A program made the translations under genes and the position numbers. DNA of 64,000 bases from Leptotrichia wadei. Lineage in GTDB: Bacteria; Fusobacteriota; Fusobacteriia; Fusobacteriales; Leptotrichiaceae. The notes beneath the pieces were generated by a model that did not search any database, had not been told where the DNA came from, and was given only the letters and a program-made list of their open reading frames with translations. The DNA lies in the NCBI RefSeq assembly GCF_007990545.2, contig NZ_AP019829.2:1178001-1242000 (forward strand). Reading direction: 5' to 3'. Shown piece after piece: positions 5,430-18,145 of this stretch. Every line of letters starts with the position of its first letter. Positions within the stretch are counted from its first letter, which is position 1.

Positions 5430-5765
5430 TTATATTTTTTTAACAAATTCCGATTTCAGCTTCATCGCACCAAAACCATCTATTTTACAGTCAATATTAT
5501 GAATCCCATCATCAATTAATCTGATATTTTTAACTTTTGTCCCTCTCTTTAAATCTGATGAAGCACCTTTTACTTTTAAATCCTTTATAATCGTAACATT
5601 ATCTCCATTTTGCAAGATATTTCCATTTGCATCTTTTACTACAGCTTCATCACTGCTTTCTTCTTCAGTTTCTGCCCATTCGTAAAAGCATTCTGGGCAA
5701 ACTAGCATATTTCCATCCTCATAAACGTATTCTGACCCACATTTTGGACATTTTGGTAAACTCAT
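5430..5765 (-). CDS. PhnA/YjdM-type zinc-ribbon protein
   Basis: Small cytosolic protein of 111 residues with an N-terminal zinc ribbon (CPKCGSEY near residue 6, VCPECFYEW near residue 23) followed by the compact beta domain typical of the PhnA/YjdM family, containing [23 protein letters not shown]. The family's molecular role is not settled; the old link to phosphonoacetate hydrolase is not supported for most members. Length and domain order are normal. The start is set by an AAAGGATGAT ribosome site. It stands alone, with gaps of about 100 bp upstream and 650 bp downstream. Confidence 0.93.
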
Positions 5766-5870
5766 ATTTTATCATCCTTTCAAATTTTCATAGTTATTTA
5801 TTATTATATCACGAAATGAAGAGTTAGAAAACATATTTATTATTTTTATTTTCAACTTACAATCTTTATC

Positions 5871-7505
5871 TTAATTTTCATTTATATTAATTTTTGCAGT
5901 AAATAAAGGCATTATAAAAAGCGTTATGAAAAATAATACTCCATAATACAAAAAAACTGTCCACAAAGGAGCTTTTCCATTGATATTAATCTGTAAAAGC
6001 GGTATTTTGCTTCCAGCATAAATAAATCCTTCAAATGCTTTAAAAATAATTTCTGTTACAAAAACAACTATGCCATTAAATAATGATAATTTAAAAATAT
6101 TTAAAAGTACGGCAAAAAATAGGCACTGGATAACAACTGTTCCAATTGGAATTCCTACAATGTTCAGTAAAAATGAGAATAACGGCAATTTTTCAAAATA
6201 ATATAAAAATAGCGGAATACTTGTGATTTGGATTGTCAGGCTTAAAAATATCAAATCTACAGTATTTCTTAAAACTTCATTTTTTATTTTATCCAAAACT
6301 TTTTCCTGATAAAGTTTCTTAAATTCAGGATTTACAAAGATTATCGCTACAACTGCGGCATAGGAAAGCTGCATTGAAATATCAAAAACTGAATAGGGAT
6401 TTAACACGATTATGACAATAAATGACACCAGCAAAGATTTTTTACTTTCCTCCTGTTCAAAAAGGATTCTTGCTAAAATCATCATAGCTCCCATAATATA
6501 AGCACGTAAAATCCCTGGTGAAAATCCGATTAATGCACAATAAAAAGTAAGTGCCGCAAGTGCCATTAAATACTTAAACCTGTATCCTAACGACAACCCA
6601 TCCAAAATTTTAACAATCCCAATCACAACCAGACTTATGTGAGTCCCAGAAATTACAATTAAATGAGCCAGCCCCGTGTATTTAAACTTTTCTTTCATAT
6701 CTTTAGAAACTTCTGCTTTTTCCCCTAAAACTGCAGCACGTGAAAAAGCATACAAATTTTCATCAGTTATAAACAATTCATCAAAAATATTCAAGATATA
6801 TTTCCGAACTCCATTCAGCCGTGATTCCTTGTATCCTAAAATTTTCCCATCAATTTTAACATTTCCATTTTTACTTATAACCTTCCTAATTTTGTACCGC
6901 ATAAGATAAAATCCATATTCCAGACCCTTTTTATTCTCAATGCCCGCCTGATTTTTCAAATATTTATTATTAACTTTTAGAACACTCCCACGATTCCCAT
7001 CAATTTTAACATAAAGCACCTTTTCCCCAGCAAGCTCTCCTTTAAAAGTAACAAAATTTAGATAAAACAAAAACAAAACAATACCTGCTAAAATCAACAT
7101 CCCAAATTGCCAAGCTCTTTTTACTTCTTCAATTCCAATTTCCATACAAAAAAACTTTTTTAAATTTTTCCTTCTTCGCAAAAGTTCGGATTTTATATAT
7201 CTTTTCCTCGCTACTTTTTCCCTCTGTTTTTTCATTTCCAAAATATATTTATCAAATTCACTATTTTCAAATTTATTTGAATGTTCATTATTTTTTATAT
7301 TTTCTTTATTTTTTAAATTTTCATTGGCTTCATTATTTTTATTAACCTTTATATTTTCAACATTCCTAAAATTTTCATTTCTTTTTGAATCTTCATTTTT
7401 ATTTGATTTTTTCACTATTCTACGAAAACTTACATTTTTAAAATCTCTTTTTTTATTACTTTTCTCTACTATTCCATTGTCCCCAATATTTTCCCCTTTT
7501 TTCAT
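5871..7505 (-). CDS. comEC: ComEC/Rec2-family competence membrane protein
   Basis: Inner-membrane channel protein expected to pass single-stranded DNA into the cytosol during transformation. The 544-residue product has a highly charged, Lys/Asn/Glu-rich N-terminal region (about residues 1-120), one membrane segment near 135-155, a soluble OB-like region, and the multi-spanning Competence domain with the conserved GLAHLIVISGTHISLV motif (about residue 278) and GFSPGILRAYIMG. It ends after the last membrane segment and lacks the C-terminal metallo-beta-lactamase domain found in many ComEC proteins. The start is one base after the stop of the pilin-like gene (TAAGATG), with the ribosome site inside that gene, so the two are coupled. 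The low-complexity N-terminus is unusual for the family. Confidence 0.9.
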   Translation of the reverse strand: MKKGENIGDNGIVEKSNKKRDFKNVSFRRIVKKSNKNEDSKRNENFRNVENIKVNKNNEANENLKNKENIKNNEHSNKFENSEFDKYILEMKKQREKVARKRYIKSELLRRRKNLKKFFCMEIGIEEVKRAWQFGMLILAGIVLFLFYLNFVTFKGELAGEKVLYVKIDGNRGSVLKVNNKYLKNQAGIENKKGLEYGFYLMRYKIRKVISKNGNVKIDGKILGYKESRLNGVRKYILNIFDELFITDENLYAFSRAAVLGEKAEVSKDMKEKFKYTGLAHLIVISGTHISLVVIGIVKILDGLSLGYRFKYLMALAALTFYCALIGFSPGILRAYIMGAMMILARILFEQEESKKSLLVSFIVIIVLNPYSVFDISMQLSYAAVVAIIFVNPEFKKLYQEKVLDKIKNEVLRNTVDLIFLSLTIQITSIPLFLYYFEKLPLFSFLLNIVGIPIGTVVIQCLFFAVLLNIFKLSLFNGIVVFVTEIIFKAFEGFIYAGSKIPLLQININGKAPLWTVFLYYGVLFFITLFIMPLFTAKININEN

Positions 7506-8439: not shown

Positions 8440-9101
8440 ATGACAAAAAAATTTAACTACAAACCATTAATTGAATATACAAATTATGAAAAAAAAAATA
8501 TATAAAACCTGAAAAAGCTGGAGATTTAAGGAAAGATATGGAACTTTTTAGAAAAAATGGACAAAATGCTAGAAAAGTTTTTACGGAAATTGCAAAGGCT
8601 TTGGAAGAAAAGACTGATGGATTTCATTTGCAAAAAGTTAGCAGCTGGATGAATCAGGCTCAGATTGCAAGACCTTATCTTTGGGTATTTTTGCGTCAAG
8701 ATGGGGATAGCGATACTGAATCTGGAATTGCTTTGAGAGTTTTTAAAAATGAAAGAACTAGAAAAGTTGGAATTTCGCTTGAAGTGAGTTTTGTTGAAAG
8801 AAAAATTGGGGAAAATACACTTGAGAATCAGAATAAAGTTTTGGAAGTGCCGATTGATGAACCACTTTATTATTTCGTGCAATTTGCGAAAAGTAAGGAA
8901 AACTGTGCTTTGGATAGATTTGAAGGGAATGAAAGTAATAGAAAAAGATTTCTTAAAGAGTGGAAAAATGGGGAAATTAGGAAAGTTTTGGTTAAGTTTG
9001 ATGTGGAAGAGATTGAAAGATTTGAGAGTTTGGATGAGCTAGTTGAGGAATTTTTGAAGGGATTTAAATTGCTTATGCCATTTTATGCTGCTACTCATTA
9101 A
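8440..9101 (+). pseudogene. conserved-looking unknown gene interrupted at an A10 run
   Basis: Translation from ATG 8440 (AAAAGGA site nine bases upstream) gives MTKKFNYKPLIEYTNYEKK and stops at once after a run of ten A at 8489-8498. Adding one A restores a frame of about 220 codons through YIKPEKAGDLRKDMELF to the TAA at 9101. The downstream part is clearly coding: good codon use, and motifs such as SSWMNQAQIARPYLWVFLRQ. The break may be a true mutation, a phase-variable tract, or a site where RNA polymerase slippage makes the full protein. If only the open part is used, translation would begin at ATG 8538. I do not recognise the family; a faint likeness to MrcB N-terminal (DUF3578) domains is not enough to name it. 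It heads the J-like/Hsp70 cluster. Confidence 0.6.
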
Positions 9102-9176
9102 ATAATAAATTTTTTTAATTTTAAAGAGATTCAATACTGCTAAACAAAAGACTAGAAAAATTTGGGAGTGATGATT

Positions 9177-10565
9177 TTGAATTTTGATGAAGCATTTAAA
9201 ATACTGGAAATAGACCCGACGGATGATAAAAAGAAAATAAAAATTGCATATTCTGAAATGTTGAAAAAATATCATCCTGAGGAATTTCCTGAGATATTTA
9301 TGAAGACTAATGAAGCATATAGAGTTGCTTTGGAGTTTGAAAAAGCTGATTTTGATGAAGTGAAATCAGAGAATAAGATGACTGAAAAAAATAATGAAAA
9401 TGAAGAATTTTTTGAAAGAGTAAAAAAGAATTTTGAAGAAAATAAAGAAAAATCTTTTTTTGAAAATTTTGAAGATATTTTTTCTGATGAAAAAAATGAA
9501 AGTGAATTTGAGAATATTTTTTCTAATAAAAATAATTATGTGAATAAAAAAACTTTTGAAGAATCTGAAGAGTTTTCAAATATTTTTGATGAAAAGAAAA
9601 ATTTAAAAAAATCAATATCTGAATGGATAGAGGGATTGAAGAGTCTTATTTTATCTGAAAAGCGACCGCTTACAGAATATAGGAAAATTTTACGGGAATT
9701 TCATTTTAATTTTGATAACTTGGAAAAAAAGCAGATTAGAGAAATTTTCCAAAAAAGTGAATTGTATAATTATGCTTGGAGAAATTTGACTAGAATTGAA
9801 ATAGAACTTTTAATTTATAATTTGAATAGTTCTGATGAGATTGTTGATATTTTAGGAGAAACTTGGGCAGATTCTGGGAAAAATGAAAACACGAGCTTAA
9901 ATAAAATTGCAAAAAAAATTTCAAGTGAAAATTTTTTAGAAAATGAAGAGGGATATGAGCAGTTTATTCAGGATTATTTTAATATTAATGTTTTTAAATT
10001 ATTTAAAAAAAATGTTGCATTGTATTCCTATCGGGATATTGAGCAAGTTGGTAATACTTTTAAATTTGTATTTTATAAAATAAAAAATGAATATATTGAA
10101 ATTAATAATTATATGAAAATTTTGGGAATGGGCTATAAAGATGGTCTTGAAGCAAAAATAACCGTATTTATAATGTTTATGTTTTTATCAACTATTATAG
10201 CTTTATTTTTTCTAGATACTAATGTTGCATGGAATATAACAGTCTTTGGAGGAATTTTTTTTACAATCATAGACTGGCTTAACATTATTTATGAAAAAGA
10301 TTTTGGCTGGAGTATGAGATGCGGATTTTCAAACTATTTATTTATACTAATGACTATAATTTTTTTGGGAAGATTAATAGTTATTGGAAATGCAGAATAT
10401 GATTCATCATTCTCAAAATTTTTACTATATTTTTTATTAATATCTCAATATTTATTTATAAATATTATTTTATTTATAAAAATGGTAACGACAACTTATG
10501 TAAGATATGAAAAAATAAAAGAATTTTCAAAAAAAATTTTGAATGTCTTTGTTTTAAAAAGATAA
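9177..10565 (+). CDS. J-like domain membrane protein, copy 1
   Basis: A protein of 463 residues with an N-terminal J-like domain (about residues 1-55), a long acidic, disordered middle rich in Glu/Asn/Phe, a helical region, and about four membrane segments in the last 150 residues. The J helix II-III loop reads YHPEEFPE, so the HPD motif that triggers Hsp70 ATPase is HPE here (His33-Pro34-Glu35). The protein would be anchored with its J-like head in the cytosol. I choose the TTG at 9177 as the start: it sits eight bases from GGGAG (9164-9168) and aligns exactly with the start of the second copy; ATG 9171 is too close to that site. It is followed 19 bases later by its paralogue and then by an Hsp70 gene. 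The cochaperone role is inference. Confidence 0.8.
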   Translation: MNFDEAFKILEIDPTDDKKKIKIAYSEMLKKYHPEEFPEIFMKTNEAYRVALEFEKADFDEVKSENKMTEKNNENEEFFERVKKNFEENKEKSFFENFEDIFSDEKNESEFENIFSNKNNYVNKKTFEESEEFSNIFDEKKNLKKSISEWIEGLKSLILSEKRPLTEYRKILREFHFNFDNLEKKQIREIFQKSELYNYAWRNLTRIEIELLIYNLNSSDEIVDILGETWADSGKNENTSLNKIAKKISSENFLENEEGYEQFIQDYFNINVFKLFKKNVALYSYRDIEQVGNTFKFVFYKIKNEYIEINNYMKILGMGYKDGLEAKITVFIMFMFLSTIIALFFLDTNVAWNITVFGGIFFTIIDWLNIIYEKDFGWSMRCGFSNYLFILMTIIFLGRLIVIGNAEYDSSFSKFLLYFLLISQYLFINIILFIKMVTTTYVRYEKIKEFSKKILNVFVLKR

Positions 10566-10584
10566 AAAATAAGGAGTGATAATT

Positions 10585-11895
10585 TTGAATTTTGACAAAG
10601 CCTTTAAAATACTAGAAATAGAGCCAACAGATGATAAGAAGAAAATAAAAATTGCATATTCTAAAATGTTGAAAGAATATCATCCAGAAGAGTTTCCTGA
10701 GATGTTTATGAAGATTCGGGAAGCGTATCAGACTGCTTTGGCGTTTGAAGAATATAATTTTGATGAAGTAAAATACAATAAAACGAATTTTAAAAATAGA
10801 AATTTTTTTGAAATTGAAAAAAATTTTGAAAATGATGATTATGAGGAGATTTTTTTTGAAAATGATATTCAAAATACAGGTATTGAGGATGAAGAATTTT
10901 CTGATGTTTTTAGTGGAAAATATGAATGGATGGAAGAAAATCTAAAGTCTTGGCTAAAAGAGATTCGCAGAATTTTAAACAGAGAAAAAGTTTCTTTTAT
11001 TTACTTAAAAGTTTTTTTGAAAAGATTTGATAAGTTTTCAGATGATGAAAAGTCTAGAATTAGGGATATTTTAGGATTGGAAAATAATGATTTTGAAGAT
11101 AATTTGATTTTAAAATCAGAGAATCTTTTTGAATTTGAAAAAGAATACATTATTTCCTGTTTGTCAAATAATAAAAATGAATTTGGGGAAATAAAGGGGC
11201 TTTATAACAGTAAAGAGGAAAAAGATAATGATAAAGCTTTGGAAAATTTTGTGGAAAGATATTTTAATGTGAAAAAGTTGAATATTTTTGGATTTTTTAT
11301 ATTTTGGAATATTTATCGTGGAAATTATAGGTATCTTGATATAAAAATAAATAAAAAAATTCACAATTTATTTTTTAATTTGACAAATAATTTATTATTA
11401 AAAAGAATAGTTTATAGTTATAAAAAAATAAAAAATATATTTTATCATTTAGAAATTACTTGCGAAGACGATATTGGAGAAGATGACGCTTTTATACACA
11501 CTCTAATATTTCTTCTTAGTTGTATTGCGCTAATTTTTATTTGCATATTTAGTTTACCAGCAATAATAAATACAAAGGAAATAGATTATAGAAATGTCGT
11601 AAAAAGTTTTGAATTAGTTAAAATTTATTGGATCGTACTTACAGTTACAAGAACTTATTTGGATTTTTCGCTTGCAAAACGTGGAAATAACTTAAATATG
11701 GCGAGTATGTTGAATATACAAATAATTCTGCTTGGAAGTTATTTAATTTCTATTTATTTTAATTATAAAATTAAAAACTTTTGGCTGTTTGGAATATTAA
11801 TATGGATGATTATAAAATTAATAATTGTAAATAGAATAAAATATTTAAGATTGAAAAATTATGCGAAACAAATACTGGACAAAATATATAATTAA
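10585..11895 (+). CDS. J-like domain membrane protein, copy 2
   Basis: Paralogue of the preceding gene with the same plan: N-terminal J-like domain with YHPEEFPE (HPE again at residues 33-35), acidic linker, helical region and about four C-terminal membrane segments (for example LIFLLSCIALIFICIFSL). The first 40 residues are nearly identical in the two proteins while the rest has diverged strongly, which points to selection on the J-like face. The TTG at 10585 lies eight bases after AAGGAG; the GTG at 10576 overlaps that site. An Hsp70 gene starts 31 bases downstream. The twin copies may form a heteromer or serve different clients. Confidence 0.8.
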   Translation: MNFDKAFKILEIEPTDDKKKIKIAYSKMLKEYHPEEFPEMFMKIREAYQTALAFEEYNFDEVKYNKTNFKNRNFFEIEKNFENDDYEEIFFENDIQNTGIEDEEFSDVFSGKYEWMEENLKSWLKEIRRILNREKVSFIYLKVFLKRFDKFSDDEKSRIRDILGLENNDFEDNLILKSENLFEFEKEYIISCLSNNKNEFGEIKGLYNSKEEKDNDKALENFVERYFNVKKLNIFGFFIFWNIYRGNYRYLDIKINKKIHNLFFNLTNNLLLKRIVYSYKKIKNIFYHLEITCEDDIGEDDAFIHTLIFLLSCIALIFICIFSLPAIINTKEIDYRNVVKSFELVKIYWIVLTVTRTYLDFSLAKRGNNLNMASMLNIQIILLGSYLISIYFNYKIKNFWLFGILIWMIIKLIIVNRIKYLRLKNYAKQILDKIYN

Positions 11896-11926
11896 AAAAG
11901 AAAAATAGTGATGGAGGAAAGTAAAA

Positions 11927-13741
11927 ATGGGAAGAATGATTGGAATCGACTTGGGAACAACTAATAGTTTGGCAACATATATTGATGATAATGGAGAAAT
12001 ACAATTTATAAAAAATGAATATGGAAATATTTTGATTCCGTCTGTTGTGGGAATTGATGAAAATGATGCAATAATTGTAGGGGAATTGGCAAAAGAGAGA
12101 AGAATGATGAATGCAGGCGAAACTGCGAGTAATTTTAAAAGAAGAATGGGAACAGATGCAAAAATTAAAGTTAAAAATAGAACTTTTGATGCACAAATGT
12201 TATCTTCATTTGTTTTGAAACATTTAAAGGAAAATGCTGAAAAACAGCTAAGTGAAAAAATAGATAGAGCAATAATAAGTGTACCTGCATATTTTAACGA
12301 TAAACAGCGTAGAGATACAAAAATGGCGGCAGAATTAGCGGGACTTACAGTAGAAAGACTTATAAATGAACCAACAGCTGCAGCAATGTCGCTTGGAAGT
12401 CATATTTTAGATCAGAATTTAAAATTTATTGTGCTCGACTTGGGCGGAGGAACATTTGATGTTACTTTGCTCGAAACATTTGAAAATATTATGGAAGTGC
12501 TGTCAATAAGTGGAGATACAATGCTTGGAGGAGAGGATTTCACCACTAAAATTTGTGAAATTTTTTTGAAAAATATCAAGTTATCAATAGCAGATTTGAG
12601 TCGTGATGAAAGAACGAAATTATACACAAAAGCAGATAGAGCAAAAAAATTAATAAGCTTGAAGAATGTAGAAATCGAGATGGAAATTAAAGGAAAAAAA
12701 TATAAATCAGAAATTACACAAGAGAATTTTAGAGAGACTGTAAAACCATTGCTTGTAAAAATGAAAGTTGCGATTGATAAGGCTCTGCAAGATGGAAATA
12801 CAGATGCTAGGGAAATTGAAAAGGTTATTTTAGTTGGAGGAGCAGTAAAATTAGGAATTATTGAAGAATTTGTGGAAAAATATTTTCATAAAATGCGTGG
12901 AGAAAAAATCTATTTTAATAACGATGATTTTATTGAAAATAATAAACTAGTATCAATAGCAGCTGATCCCGATACAGTTGTGGCTTATGGTGTTGGAATC
13001 GCAGTTGGAATGAAGGAAAGAAACAAAGTATTTAAAGAGAGAATTCTGACTGATGTGTGCCCATTTACTCTAGGAACAGAAATCGTAGGAAGACGATTCG
13101 CACCGATTATTCCTAGAAATACCACAGTTCCCACAAGTAGATCTGAATATTTTTACACAATAGAAGACTATCAAAGTCAAGTAACTGTCGGAATTTATCA
13201 AGGAGAAAGTTTGAACATAGATGATAACTTATTTTTGGGAGAATTTTTACTAGATGTGCCACAAAACTTAGCAGGAAAAGAAGCCATAAATGTGAGATTT
13301 ACTTACGATATAAATGGTATTTTGGAAGTAGAAGCAAAAGTTGTGAGTACAGGAGTTAAAAAAAGTAAATTAATTATAAATGGTGATTTATCAGAAGAAG
13401 AAAAAAACGAGAAAATAAAAATGCTGGAAGAAATAAAAATTCAGTCTGAAAATAAAAATAAGGATAAACTGCTGCTTGAGAGAGCAAATAGAATCTATGC
13501 TGAAATAGTGAATACAGAAATTAGAAATCATATTTCTGAATATTTAGAAAATTACCAAAAAATTGTAGTAACAGGCGACAGAATCCGTATTCAAAAGACA
13601 AAAAAGAGTTTTTCAGAATTTCTTGACAAAATTGATCCTGAAATTAATGACATGAGTGTAGAAGATATTTTGAAAGATTTTGAAGATGAAACGGAAGAGG
13701 AAGATATGAAAGAAGAAGATGAACTAGAATTTTGGAATTAA
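11927..13741 (+). CDS. divergent Hsp70 (DnaK-family) chaperone
   Basis: An Hsp70 of 604 residues. The nucleotide-binding domain is intact: IGIDLGTTNS at residues 5-14, NEPTAAAMSLG, LDLGGGTFDVTLLE near residue 165, and the adenosine motif LVGGAVKLGIIEEF. The substrate-binding half is present but atypical (TLGTEIVGRRFAPIIPRNTT), with a shortened helical lid and an acidic tail (DETEEEDMKEEDELEFWN). It lacks grpE or a standard dnaJ next to it, unlike a housekeeping dnaK operon, and follows two membrane J-like genes. That context suggests a specialised, membrane-directed Hsp70 working with them. The start has a GATGGAGG site nine bases upstream. Confidence 0.9.
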   Translation: MGRMIGIDLGTTNSLATYIDDNGEIQFIKNEYGNILIPSVVGIDENDAIIVGELAKERRMMNAGETASNFKRRMGTDAKIKVKNRTFDAQMLSSFVLKHLKENAEKQLSEKIDRAIISVPAYFNDKQRRDTKMAAELAGLTVERLINEPTAAAMSLGSHILDQNLKFIVLDLGGGTFDVTLLETFENIMEVLSISGDTMLGGEDFTTKICEIFLKNIKLSIADLSRDERTKLYTKADRAKKLISLKNVEIEMEIKGKKYKSEITQENFRETVKPLLVKMKVAIDKALQDGNTDAREIEKVILVGGAVKLGIIEEFVEKYFHKMRGEKIYFNNDDFIENNKLVSIAADPDTVVAYGVGIAVGMKERNKVFKERILTDVCPFTLGTEIVGRRFAPIIPRNTTVPTSRSEYFYTIEDYQSQVTVGIYQGESLNIDDNLFLGEFLLDVPQNLAGKEAINVRFTYDINGILEVEAKVVSTGVKKSKLIINGDLSEEEKNEKIKMLEEIKIQSENKNKDKLLLERANRIYAEIVNTEIRNHISEYLENYQKIVVTGDRIRIQKTKKSFSEFLDKIDPEINDMSVEDILKDFEDETEEEDMKEEDELEFWN

Positions 13742-13900: not shown

Positions 13901-13929
13901 TTATGAAATTAAAAAGAGGTGAAGTAGTT

Positions 13930-14826
13930 ATGAAAAGAAAAAATTTATTGAAAATATTGGGGTTATTGATTTTGTCAGGAAATGTTGCAAGTGCTAAATA
14001 TTTAGGAAAACTTGAGAAAACTTATTCTAAAACTTCAGATTATAAAATGAAAATTACGAGTGTTAAAAGTGGAAAAAGTAAGAGAAATGTTTCAAAAATG
14101 TTAAGTAATCAAGAAATTGATTTGAAACTTATTGAAAAAATTGGGGATTCAAATTATTTTAGAAATAAAAATGGGATTTATTATAAAAGTGGAGAAAAAG
14201 TTTTGAAATTGGATGGAGTTGATAAAGATAGTTTTGAAGTTATGAAATTTGGAAATTATGGGAAAGATAAGAATAGTGTTTTTTATCATAATAGAAAATT
14301 GGATGGTGTTAAACCAATTGGATTTGAGGAACTGGATGAAAGATTTGCGACATATGAAGGTGTTCTTTTTCATAATGGAGAAAAAGTTGAGGGAGTGAGA
14401 AGAATTGAGAGTGGCGATATGGATATGAATGGTCTTGAGAGAATTAGAGTTTCTGATCATTGGGATCTAGGGTACTCAAATTATTTCAAAAATAAAGATG
14501 GAATTTATTATGCGGGGGAAAGTAAATTTCTTAAATTGAACGGTGCAGATAAAGATAGCTTTAGTGTGACTTTTAAAGGAAAATATGGAAAAGATAAAAA
14601 CAGTGTCTATTATCAAGATAAAAAAATGGACGGTGTAAAACCAAGTGAATTTATAGAGTTAAATGATATTTTTGCAAAAGATCGAAATAATATTTATATT
14701 GATGGGAAAAAACTTGAGAATTTTGAGGCAAGAGATTTTTTGATTTTGGATGAAAAGAGATTCGAGTATAAAAATAAGAAATATTATTATGATAAAAAAA
14801 GTAAAACTGTTAAAGAAGATAAATAA
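13930..14826 (+). CDS. secreted DKNYY-repeat protein, short form
   Basis: A protein of 298 residues with a signal peptide (MKRKNLLKILGLLILSG, predicted cut after VASA) and about six DKNYY-type repeats such as KDKNSVFY, NKDGIYY and KDKNSVYY, spaced 20-30 residues apart and linked by DGVKPIGFEEL-like segments. The DKNYY family (named for the motif) occurs in Fusobacteria and Bacteroidetes on the surface or in the periplasm; the function is unknown. The ATG at 13930 follows AGAGGTG and gives a clean signal peptide, so I prefer it to the ATG at 13903 that precedes this site. The start of the next gene product is closely similar, so the two are paralogues. Confidence 0.85.
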   Translation: MKRKNLLKILGLLILSGNVASAKYLGKLEKTYSKTSDYKMKITSVKSGKSKRNVSKMLSNQEIDLKLIEKIGDSNYFRNKNGIYYKSGEKVLKLDGVDKDSFEVMKFGNYGKDKNSVFYHNRKLDGVKPIGFEELDERFATYEGVLFHNGEKVEGVRRIESGDMDMNGLERIRVSDHWDLGYSNYFKNKDGIYYAGESKFLKLNGADKDSFSVTFKGKYGKDKNSVYYQDKKMDGVKPSEFIELNDIFAKDRNNIYIDGKKLENFEARDFLILDEKRFEYKNKKYYYDKKSKTVKEDK

Positions 14827-14941
14827 ATTGAAAAAATTTTTTAAAGTTATCAGACAGAACTAATATTATTTTTTTTAAAGGATCTTGAATAAATTTACCA
14901 TTTTAAATAGAAAAAAATTTAAAAATGACAAGGAGTAAAAT

Positions 14942-17900
14942 ATGAAAAGAAAAAGTTTACTAAAAATATTGGTTTTATTTATTTTAGCGGGAACTATTGC
15001 AAATGCTGAGTATTTGAAAAAGGATGGAGAAGTTTATTATGAAATGCCATATCTTGAAATTAAGTTGAAAGTGAAAGATGCGGATGCGAAGACTTTTGAA
15101 AATTTGGGAGAAGATAAGATGAAAATTATCGGCTATTTTGGAAAAGATAGCAAAAATGTTTATTTTCTTGGGAAAAAATTAAAAGATGTTTCAACTAAAA
15201 AATTTGAAATTTTGGATGAAAAGTATGTGAAGGATTACAAAAATTTGTATAATCTTAAAACTGATTCACTTTCCTTTTTTTCAATTGATGAAATAAAACC
15301 GAAAAAAGTGTCGATTGATGGACTTGATGTGAAAAGTTTTAAAGTTTTAGAAAATAAAAAAGCTTCTTTAACAGACTATTATACGGATAAAAATAGCGTT
15401 TATTTTCATAAAGATGATTTGAGAAAAATAACTGGAGCGGATAAAAATTCTTTTGAAATTTTGGAGGAGTATATTGCCAGAGATAAAAATAATGTTTATT
15501 CTAAAGGGGAAAAGCTAGGAAATATAGATATTAAAAGTTTTAAATATTTTGAAGATGGGCTAGCAAAAGATAAGAACAGAGTTTTTTACATTGAGGATAA
15601 TAAAGATGTTACAGGAGTAGATGCGAAAACTTTTGAAAGAATGGGAGAAAGTTATTATTTTAGAGATAAAAATAATATCTTTGCTTTAAAGGATTATAAT
15701 CCTTATGATTTGGAAATGTTGAAAAATATTGATAGAAATAGTTTTAATACTTTGAGTAAGGAAATCGGGAAGGATAAAAATGGAGTTTATTATTTTGGAG
15801 AAAAAATAGATGGAATTTCTTCAGATAATGCTAAAATTGTTGAAGCGTTGGGAAATAGCGACTATATTCTTCAAAGTGGCAACGACCATTATTTGATGAC
15901 TGTAAATGAAAAGGATTCAGATAACAATGAAAGATTTGAAATAAAGAAAATAGATAGCTTGAATATTGATTTTGATACATTTAAATATTTTGAGATGTCT
16001 AATTTGTATAAAGATAAAAATAGTTTTTATTATCATTCAGATAATGACTTGAAAAAAATTAAAAGCAACATTGATGTGAAAAGTGCTGAAAAAGTGCTGA
16101 AATTAAATGATTTTATAAAGGATAAAAATAACCTTTATTATTATTCTAACGGAAAAATTGAGAAGATTAATTTGAAAATAGATGTAAATAATTTGGAATA
16201 CTTGGATGATGGAAATTCTACTTTTAGTAATTATTTGAGAGATGGGAAAAATATTTACTTTGTGGATAATGAGTATGGAAAAGTAAAAATTATGAAAAAT
16301 GTTGATAGAAATACATTTAAAGTTGTAAACGGAAATTATGGAGTGGATAGTAAAAATGTTTATTGTTTTGGAGAAAAATTGGATTTTGTAGGACTAGATG
16401 GGCTTAAAATTTTTAATGAGACTTATTTGAAAGATAATAAAAATGTTTATGAAATTTCTGCAAATGATAATGACAAAGTGAAAGTAGAACCGATTAAAAA
16501 TCTTAATATTGATGTGGCAAGTTTTGAAGATATTTTTGGTGGATTAAATTACAAAGATAAAAATTCAGTTTATTATGTTGATGAAAATAATGGAGAAGTC
16601 TCTTTGAAAATATTAAAAGGAGCAGATCCAGCTACATTTGAGTTTGGAATTATTTCAAAAGATAAAAATAGTGTTTTTATTGGAAATCAAAAGTTGAAAG
16701 GTGTGAGTTCTAAAGGATTTGAAGTATTAAATGATAGTTTAGATTTTGTAAAAGATTACAAGAATGTTTACTATTTGGATAGAGAAAGTGATGGAATTAC
16801 TTATAAAGTGGAAGTTTTAGATACAAAAGGAGTTGACATTCCGAGTTTTGAATTTTTTGGGAATTCTTACAACAAATATTACAAAGATAAGAATAACATA
16901 TATTTGTTAAATGATAGAGATGACAAAATGAAACTTGAAAAATTGGCTGGTGCAAATCCAAAAACATTTGAAATTATGGATGGTAATTTTGCAAGAGATG
17001 ATAAAAATCTTTATATTTTTGAGTATAAAGTGGATGGAATTGATCCAAAGACATTTGAAGCATTGAACTATGAAATGATAAAAGATAAAAATGGAGTGTA
17101 TTTTTTGGAAAATATTTCAGAAGAAAATGAAAATTCAGAAATAAAAACTAAAAAGTTGAACTTAAAAGGATTGGATTTGAGAAGTTTTAAAAAAGTTGAT
17201 GATAGCGATTATTATTTTAAAGATAAAAATAGTATTTATTACGAGGATTCTGGAAATTTACATAAAATAGAAAGTGCTGACTTGAAAACATTCAAAGACT
17301 TGGATTATAATTTTGCGAAAGATAAAAATAATATTTATTATAAAAATAAAAAATTGGATGGAATCGATGCTGCAAGTTTTGAAAAAATAGAATTTAATTT
17401 TATAAAAGATAAAAACAGACTTTATAAAATTGACGAAGATGAAGAAAAAAATGAGATAAAATTAATTCCAATCAATGAAAAAGTCAATCTTGAAAATTTT
17501 GAAGAAATTGGTGGAAATTATTATAAAGACGATAAAAATCTCTATTATTTTGGAGAAAATGAGTTTAAGAAAATAGAAGAAGCAGATCCAGATTCATTTA
17601 AATATGACAATGAAAATTATACTTTTATTGCAAAAGATAAAAACAATGTTTATTTTGAAGGAGAAAAAGTGAAAGGAATAGATGTTAAGAGTGCCGAAGG
17701 AATAGACGGGCTTTGGATGAAAGATAAAAATAGTGTGTTTTATCGAGGGAAGAAATTGGAGAAAATCAGTTCAAATAAATTTCAATATTTTGACGGTGGA
17801 ATTTCGTATGACAAAATTTTGATTGACAAAAATGGAGCTTATAAATTGCTAGAAAGTGAAAACCAGAAAGATAAAATAATTCCACTCGACAGCAAAAATA

Positions 17901-18145
17901 TTGACTTAAAAACTCTTGAAAGATTTGATACACCAATAGATGGTTCAAATTATTTCAAAGATAAAAACGGAGTTTATTTCTTGAACGGAGAAAAATTTGT
18001 GAAAATAAATGGAGCGGATAGAAATAGTTTTGAAGTAACGATGAGCGGGAAATATGGGAAAGATAAGAATAATGTTTATTTTGAAGGAAAGAAAATGGAA
18101 GGGGAGAATCCGAAGGAATTTGAGGAGATTGATATTAATGATTAG
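14942..18145 (+). CDS. large secreted DKNYY-repeat protein
   Basis: A 1067-residue exported protein made almost wholly of repeats after a signal peptide (MKRKSLLKILVLFILAG, predicted cut after ANA). I count about 27 copies of a KDKNxVYY-like motif, for example KDKNSVYY, KDKNNIYY and KDDKNLYY, each followed by a short turn and an ADxxSFEVL-like segment that makes a second half-repeat. This resembles a long solenoid or a chain of small beta units that could bind polymers or ions at the surface; the function is not known. AAGGAG lies six bases before the ATG. The AAA/PD-(D/E)XK gene starts 27 bases downstream, so the two are probably cotranscribed. Confidence 0.87.
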   Translation: MKRKSLLKILVLFILAGTIANAEYLKKDGEVYYEMPYLEIKLKVKDADAKTFENLGEDKMKIIGYFGKDSKNVYFLGKKLKDVSTKKFEILDEKYVKDYKNLYNLKTDSLSFFSIDEIKPKKVSIDGLDVKSFKVLENKKASLTDYYTDKNSVYFHKDDLRKITGADKNSFEILEEYIARDKNNVYSKGEKLGNIDIKSFKYFEDGLAKDKNRVFYIEDNKDVTGVDAKTFERMGESYYFRDKNNIFALKDYNPYDLEMLKNIDRNSFNTLSKEIGKDKNGVYYFGEKIDGISSDNAKIVEALGNSDYILQSGNDHYLMTVNEKDSDNNERFEIKKIDSLNIDFDTFKYFEMSNLYKDKNSFYYHSDNDLKKIKSNIDVKSAEKVLKLNDFIKDKNNLYYYSNGKIEKINLKIDVNNLEYLDDGNSTFSNYLRDGKNIYFVDNEYGKVKIMKNVDRNTFKVVNGNYGVDSKNVYCFGEKLDFVGLDGLKIFNETYLKDNKNVYEISANDNDKVKVEPIKNLNIDVASFEDIFGGLNYKDKNSVYYVDENNGEVSLKILKGADPATFEFGIISKDKNSVFIGNQKLKGVSSKGFEVLNDSLDFVKDYKNVYYLDRESDGITYKVEVLDTKGVDIPSFEFFGNSYNKYYKDKNNIYLLNDRDDKMKLEKLAGANPKTFEIMDGNFARDDKNLYIFEYKVDGIDPKTFEALNYEMIKDKNGVYFLENISEENENSEIKTKKLNLKGLDLRSFKKVDDSDYYFKDKNSIYYEDSGNLHKIESADLKTFKDLDYNFAKDKNNIYYKNKKLDGIDAASFEKIEFNFIKDKNRLYKIDEDEEKNEIKLIPINEKVNLENFEEIGGNYYKDDKNLYYFGENEFKKIEEADPDSFKYDNENYTFIAKDKNNVYFEGEKVKGIDVKSAEGIDGLWMKDKNSVFYRGKKLEKISSNKFQYFDGGISYDKILIDKNGAYKLLESENQKDKIIPLDSKNIDLKTLERFDTPIDGSNYFKDKNGVYFLNGEKFVKINGADRNSFEVTMSGKYGKDKNNVYFEGKKMEGENPKEFEEIDIND

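Follow-up and report, generated by a model that had tools for sequence, protein, structure and literature searches.

The HPD triad of J-domain proteins is taught as indispensable, and a locus in which two neighbouring J-like proteins carry HPE instead, directly before an Hsp70 gene, raises the question of whether such heads still activate their Hsp70 or only recruit it. The locus lies in a 64,000-nucleotide stretch of the Leptotrichia wadei genome, which is referred to here as the window. An earlier note on this DNA had proposed a dedicated membrane chaperone set, and this proposal is supported by the present analysis, which finds the system to be of HscC type, with both its linkage and its HPE conserved. 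The note had taken the set to be a dedicated one, but did not recognise its likeness to HscC, DjlB and DjlC. HPE is the rule for part of that family. We regard it as highly probable that the locus is a fusobacterial HscC system in which two membrane-anchored HPE J proteins bring HscC to inner-membrane clients, with HPE acting as HPD does elsewhere.

Gene order and the J-like proteins

The three genes lie head to tail on the plus strand and all three open reading frames are intact. The features are as follows.

9177..10565, plus strand: J1, a class C J-domain protein of 462 aa with a TTG start; N-terminal short-loop HPE J head, acidic linker, helical middle and four C-terminal membrane segments
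9273..9281, plus strand: HPE codons of J1 (cat cct gag), residues 33-35, as H33-P34-D35 of DnaJ
10585..11895, plus strand: J2, a paralogue of J1, 436 aa with a TTG start; HPE head, acidic linker and three to four membrane segments
10681..10689, plus strand: HPE codons of J2 (cat cca gaa), with synonymous differences from J1
11927..13741, plus strand: HscC-type Hsp70, 604 aa, ATPase motifs intact; R167 equivalent kept, Q378 equivalent replaced by A, GrpE-loop deletion; lineage insertion of about 18 aa in the NBD and an acidic C-tail

On reading the sequence, both J genes are likely to start with TTG, at 9177 and at 10585, in either case with a GGAG 8 nt before it, and the numbering of H-P-E as residues 33-35 is counted from these starts. 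The Hsp70 follows the second J gene by 31 bases, as had been noted, and its ATPase motifs are intact. Neither grpE nor a usual dnaJ is nearby, again as noted: dnaK, dnaJ and grpE are at 330-338 kb and the window is at 1178-1242 kb. The stretch at 8440-9101, which had been counted as part of the module, holds a different gene, which lies upstream and has no tie to the module; its membership was rejected, as it is also found in genomes without the module, and searches of Pfam and PDB gave no match for it. In the window the start region of this gene is out of frame at an A run near 8490-8500 and in ten relatives it is intact; the break could be a sequencing error or real. Directly after the module (window 13903-18145) are DKNYY repeat proteins with signal-like starts. 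A role of the module as a defence system was also considered and rejected, PADLOC giving no match.

Both heads contain YHPEEFPE. They had been called nearly identical over 40 residues, which captures their close likeness but is slightly generous, identity being 82% over 50 residues (dN 0.10, dS 0.70, dN/dS about 0.15), values that indicate purifying selection. The Pfam DnaJ model (PF00226) matches the heads of J1 and J2 at E 1.9e-5 and 1.6e-7, respectively, and at 2.1e-6 and 6.0e-8 in a six-frame search. An AlphaFold model of the J1 head (pLDDT 90) has J-domain helices I-III, and its best PDB matches by Foldseek are J-domains at probability 1.0, with E-values of only 0.03-0.1 because the query is 63 residues long. 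Likewise, a profile of the heads finds the J-domains of DnaJA1, DnaJ and CbpA at 1e-13 to 1e-16. Of the features that define class C J-domains, the helix II/III hairpin is present in the head and the HPD triad is replaced by HPE in both copies. The loop from triad to helix III is about six residues shorter in HscC-linked heads, and J1/J2-type heads, with their shorter loop, have lost contacts of the K26, R27 and K48 type made by DnaJ.

Outside the head, the fold prediction for full-length J1 is not confident. The four C-terminal membrane segments claimed for each protein are present in J1, but hydropathy gives J2 three clear segments and a weak fourth. Compared with DjlB and DjlC, the heads align over their whole length (hhalign E 7.6e-19), whereas comparison of the bodies, made with shallow profiles, gave E 0.4 and no detectable relation; nor was any relation detected to other membrane types of J body. 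Across bacteria, the short-loop head and HscC stay together as a unit, and the body is exchanged, presumably along with the client or location. In J1 of four relatives the HPE head is followed by a second, degenerate J repeat with HRN, which is complete in three (L030, L031, L033) and interrupted by a frame break in the fourth (L032); the two repeats would make a tandem of an active and a degenerate J.

The Hsp70 and its contact residues

The best curated match (NCBIfam) of the Hsp70 is generic and E. coli HscC is placed likewise, so that a tree was needed. An IQ-TREE phylogeny of 41 rows was reconstructed with E. coli DnaK and HscA and fusobacterial DnaKs included. The window Hsp70 and E. coli HscC fall into one group of 32 rows (support 100/99) that stands apart from all of these, and a grouping of the genus Hsp70s with DnaKs was rejected (p-AU 1.4e-5). 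The genus joins the Bacillota HscCs at 100/99 on a long stem branch (1.75), which may mean that the function of the Hsp70 has shifted. Diagnostic features of HscC, including an L1,2 insertion, have been described (PMC8215388). The window protein has the linker ILTD and T at DnaK positions 392 and 477, and when aligned with E. coli HscC, DnaK and HscA it lacks both the GrpE signature (DnaK 290-295) and the helix B residues. Deletions in the DnaK 76-101 region and the D211 loop are present as well, yet these occur also in the local DnaKs and do not discriminate. The 4-8 residue L1,2 insertion (SBD-beta) is missing from the window and the genus and present in the HscCs of E. coli and of G046, a fusobacterial genome outside the genus, and the window protein is longer than usual for HscC (604 against 550-580 aa). 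The window Hsp70 is an HscC-clade Hsp70 and not a new kind of system. Matches of about 40% identity elsewhere in Fusobacteriota (G040, G041 and G046:C86) were rejected as HscC; these are DnaK, with an HPD dnaJ downstream.

In the DnaK-DnaJ structure, D35 of the triad bonds R167 and Q378, H33 bonds the backbone of L391, and P34 packs on P419 (PMC8215388); the HPD aspartate has been proposed to pull R167 off intramolecular aspartates, including linker D393 (PMC7289447). R167 is retained in every HscC examined but one, which has K; D393 and P419 are invariant, and position 391 is L or M. Compensation for HPE at R167 was rejected on this basis, and the retention of R167 indicates that the main partner of the triad acid has not been re-coded. 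At position 378 the 11 carrier genomes have T (7) or A (4), and all other HscCs examined have Q. Strict covariation of Q378 with HPE was rejected too, as three Bacillota, Erwinia and E. coli combine HPE with Q. In this genus the longer Glu might be accommodated by the smaller side chain at 378, a lineage-specific hint only, since other HPE systems manage with Gln. The earlier suggestion that a changed J loop is matched to a changed Hsp70 therefore holds only loosely: R167 is unchanged, and the change at 378 is missing from other HPE-partnered HscCs.

Distribution in Fusobacteriota and the reading of HPE

A search of 98 Fusobacteriota genomes for the window Hsp70 found it in 10 of the 13 genomes of the window's genus and in one neighbouring genus (Hsp70 identity 77-100%). 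The predicted synteny is borne out, a J gene being linked to the Hsp70 in 11/11 carriers, and all 17 heads in these 11 genomes have HPE (HPEEFPE or HPEDFPE), HPD thus not being the norm. Two J genes with HPE heads occur in six genomes, the window included (the others are L028 and L030-L033), some with broken frames; the remaining carriers have a single head-bearing J gene. Next to the head-bearing gene, G074 and G069 have a J1-like stretch in which no head was recognised; in G074 (L029) it lies at about 5680-6591, before J2. The module is placed between the conserved upstream gene and the DKNYY repeat genes, and in G071, G073 and G075 the DKNYY genes (L163-L165) follow the upstream gene directly with no trace of the module. 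Its presence or clean absence (3/13) at one site marks it as a cassette at a fixed address. Frame breaks are found in J1 and J2 of G080, J1 of G079 and hscC of G078, some of which may be homopolymer sequencing errors. Downstream of the module, two relatives have an extra partial copy of the hscC 3' end (residues 529-604, 84% identical; L028 11298-11525 and L034 11275-11502), and L034 belongs to G078, whose hscC is itself broken.

HPE is most likely functional here and neither dead nor confined to recruitment. A recent review (PMC13254874, 2026) notes that HPE seems to be the sole tolerated replacement of HPD and gives DjlB and DjlC, both interaction partners of HscC, as proteins that have it. 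DjlC stimulates the HscC ATPase, and both J proteins are membrane anchored (PMC8215388). As DjlB and DjlC carry HPE and DjlC stimulates HscC, a J domain with HPE is not necessarily dead. By analogy, J1 and J2 would tether HscC at the inner membrane with their heads facing the cytoplasm. Published work on DnaK and DnaJ leads one to expect that the carboxylate of Glu35 takes R167 from linker D393, thereby triggering ATP hydrolysis. Separation of this pair from DnaK/DnaJ would be due to the shorter loop together with a remodelled patch of charges, and GrpE is expected to be unnecessary because the GrpE-binding loop is deleted. Judging from the dissimilar J bodies, the clients may differ from those of DjlB and DjlC.

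Three other readings have been weighed. The first, raised in the earlier note, is that the HPE heads recruit HscC to the membrane without ATPase stimulation, like the pseudo-J protein Pam16, and that a client or another J protein stimulates. Such a reading could draw on the loss of stimulation by D-to-N and other HPD changes in DnaJ-type pairs (PMC8215388), on the loss of Q378 in this lineage, and on the degenerate HRN repeat beside the HPE head in some relatives. We consider it improbable, and the earlier suggestion is disfavoured: E. coli DjlC, with the same HPE, stimulates HscC (PMC8215388, PMC13254874), Glu retains a carboxylate and R167 is kept, and an HPD partner is linked in none of the HscC loci examined. 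It is still less probable that J1 and J2 serve the housekeeping DnaK besides or in place of the linked Hsp70. The DnaK system is present in this genome and its R167 is an identical partner for the triad, but the tight linkage to hscC in all carriers, the missing DnaJ-type contacts and the shorter loop speak against such service. That the module is decaying, with HPE as an early step of loss, is hardly credible despite the frame breaks in G080, G079 and G078 and the clean absence from three relatives, given that the window genes are intact, that HPE recurs in distant Enterobacterales and Bacillota, and that sequencing errors may account for some of the breaks. The earlier argument that HPE in both copies speaks against decay is strengthened by the 17 fixed heads, the synonymous codon differences and the low dN/dS. 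The preferred reading thus remains that of HPE heads that activate HscC at the membrane.

Triads beyond the genus and comparison with known systems

To keep clear of bias, the survey of other bacteria started from the Hsp70 rather than from the triad. Among 80 loci with an HscC-type gene on genome contigs, mostly of Lachnospiraceae, an adjacent J-like protein was found in 76, all with NPE (76/76), and the remaining four are short contigs or have a truncated hscC. Three further Bacillota loci have HPE and one has NPE, and the fusobacterial G046 (L038) has an HscC with an NPE partner. In Pseudomonadota, which were sampled through plasmids only, the triad is HPE in Erwinia, DPQ in Eleftheria, DIE in Paracoccus, and RPD in Pseudomonas, Rahnella (twice), Duffyella and Rhizobium. 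As a control, J-domains of other classes in six whole genomes are HPD in 18/18 cases. Less expected than HPE itself, the classical HPD was found in none of the helper heads beside HscC-type Hsp70s across the whole sample, which is dominated by Lachnospiraceae with other phyla thinly sampled. Triad counts are not independent events; the tree, whose backbone is weak, requires nine triad changes in all.

Several related arrangements were also observed. In L111 (4860-8663) and also in L145, the NPE J-like protein is fused to HscC in a single frame of 1,267 aa. Two Lachnospiraceae loci (L143, L144) have a second, distinct Hsp70 class that falls outside HscC in the tree and is linked to short-loop heads with PPE and SPE. 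A Nostoc plasmid (L133) has a cluster of a TPR protein, a J-like protein without HPD (FPAH), GrpE and a divergent Hsp70 with Q at position 167.

We tentatively suggest, with slightly less than even confidence, that the heads linked to HscC form a class of J-domains whose activation loop has been re-coded: it is shorter by about six residues, its triad is usually [H/N/R]-P-[E/D], and all such heads productively activate HscC through the unchanged R167. If this is true, J-domains have no universal need for either the His or the Asp of HPD, and NPE has become fixed as a functional triad throughout a bacterial family. The locus itself shows HPE fixed in another phylum than that of E. coli, and the survey points to a shift of an entire J class linked to Hsp70 to NPE, RPD or HPE with the Hsp70 arginine unmoved. 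With these naturally occurring variants one can ask which of the triad's atoms are important, and whether it is the triad and the length of the loop that keep HscC insulated from DnaK. Most worth pursuing is the lack of HPD throughout the class together with the fixation of NPE in a single family, and there may be earlier published mention of NPE or RPD.

The E. coli system of HscC with DjlB and DjlC was reportedly described by Kluck and colleagues in 2002. In K-12, djlB, djlC and hscC lie within 6 kb, and the triads are in FHPETDPQGF (DjlB) and CHPETDPQGF (DjlC). Only for E. coli is it known that the linked J protein stimulates HscC and that DnaJ does not (PMC8215388). Cadmium sensitivity is a known phenotype of deletions in this K-12 system. 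Like the window, E. coli has an Hsp70 of the HscC clade with genes for two paralogous, membrane-anchored J proteins of class C alongside, and it also shares HPE, a shortened loop to helix III and deletion of the GrpE loop. In contrast to E. coli, the J bodies here are without detectable relation and have three to four membrane segments, not one tail anchor; the three genes are co-directional, without DUF1266 neighbours; and the Hsp70 has Q378 replaced, no L1,2 insertion and an extra NBD insertion.

The Lachnospiraceae systems also place a J-like gene, encoding a TPR protein of about 1,100 aa, directly beside an HscC-type Hsp70, and share the short-loop form of the head (PE-x-x-P-E-x-F...AYE). 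They differ in having NPE throughout, only one J gene, which in one case (L111) is fused to the Hsp70, and a body with TPR repeats (Pfam, one scanned) and no membrane segment in those checked. DnaK-DnaJ-GrpE has in common with the window a J-domain hairpin that triggers the Hsp70 ATPase and the contact of R167 with a carboxylate, but has HPD, a longer loop and a GrpE-binding loop, and is encoded elsewhere in the genome. Pam16/Tim16 is likewise a membrane-associated J-like protein without HPD, but the place of HPD in Pam16 is taken by DKE or DKS (PMC13254874) and its Hsp70 is not stimulated.
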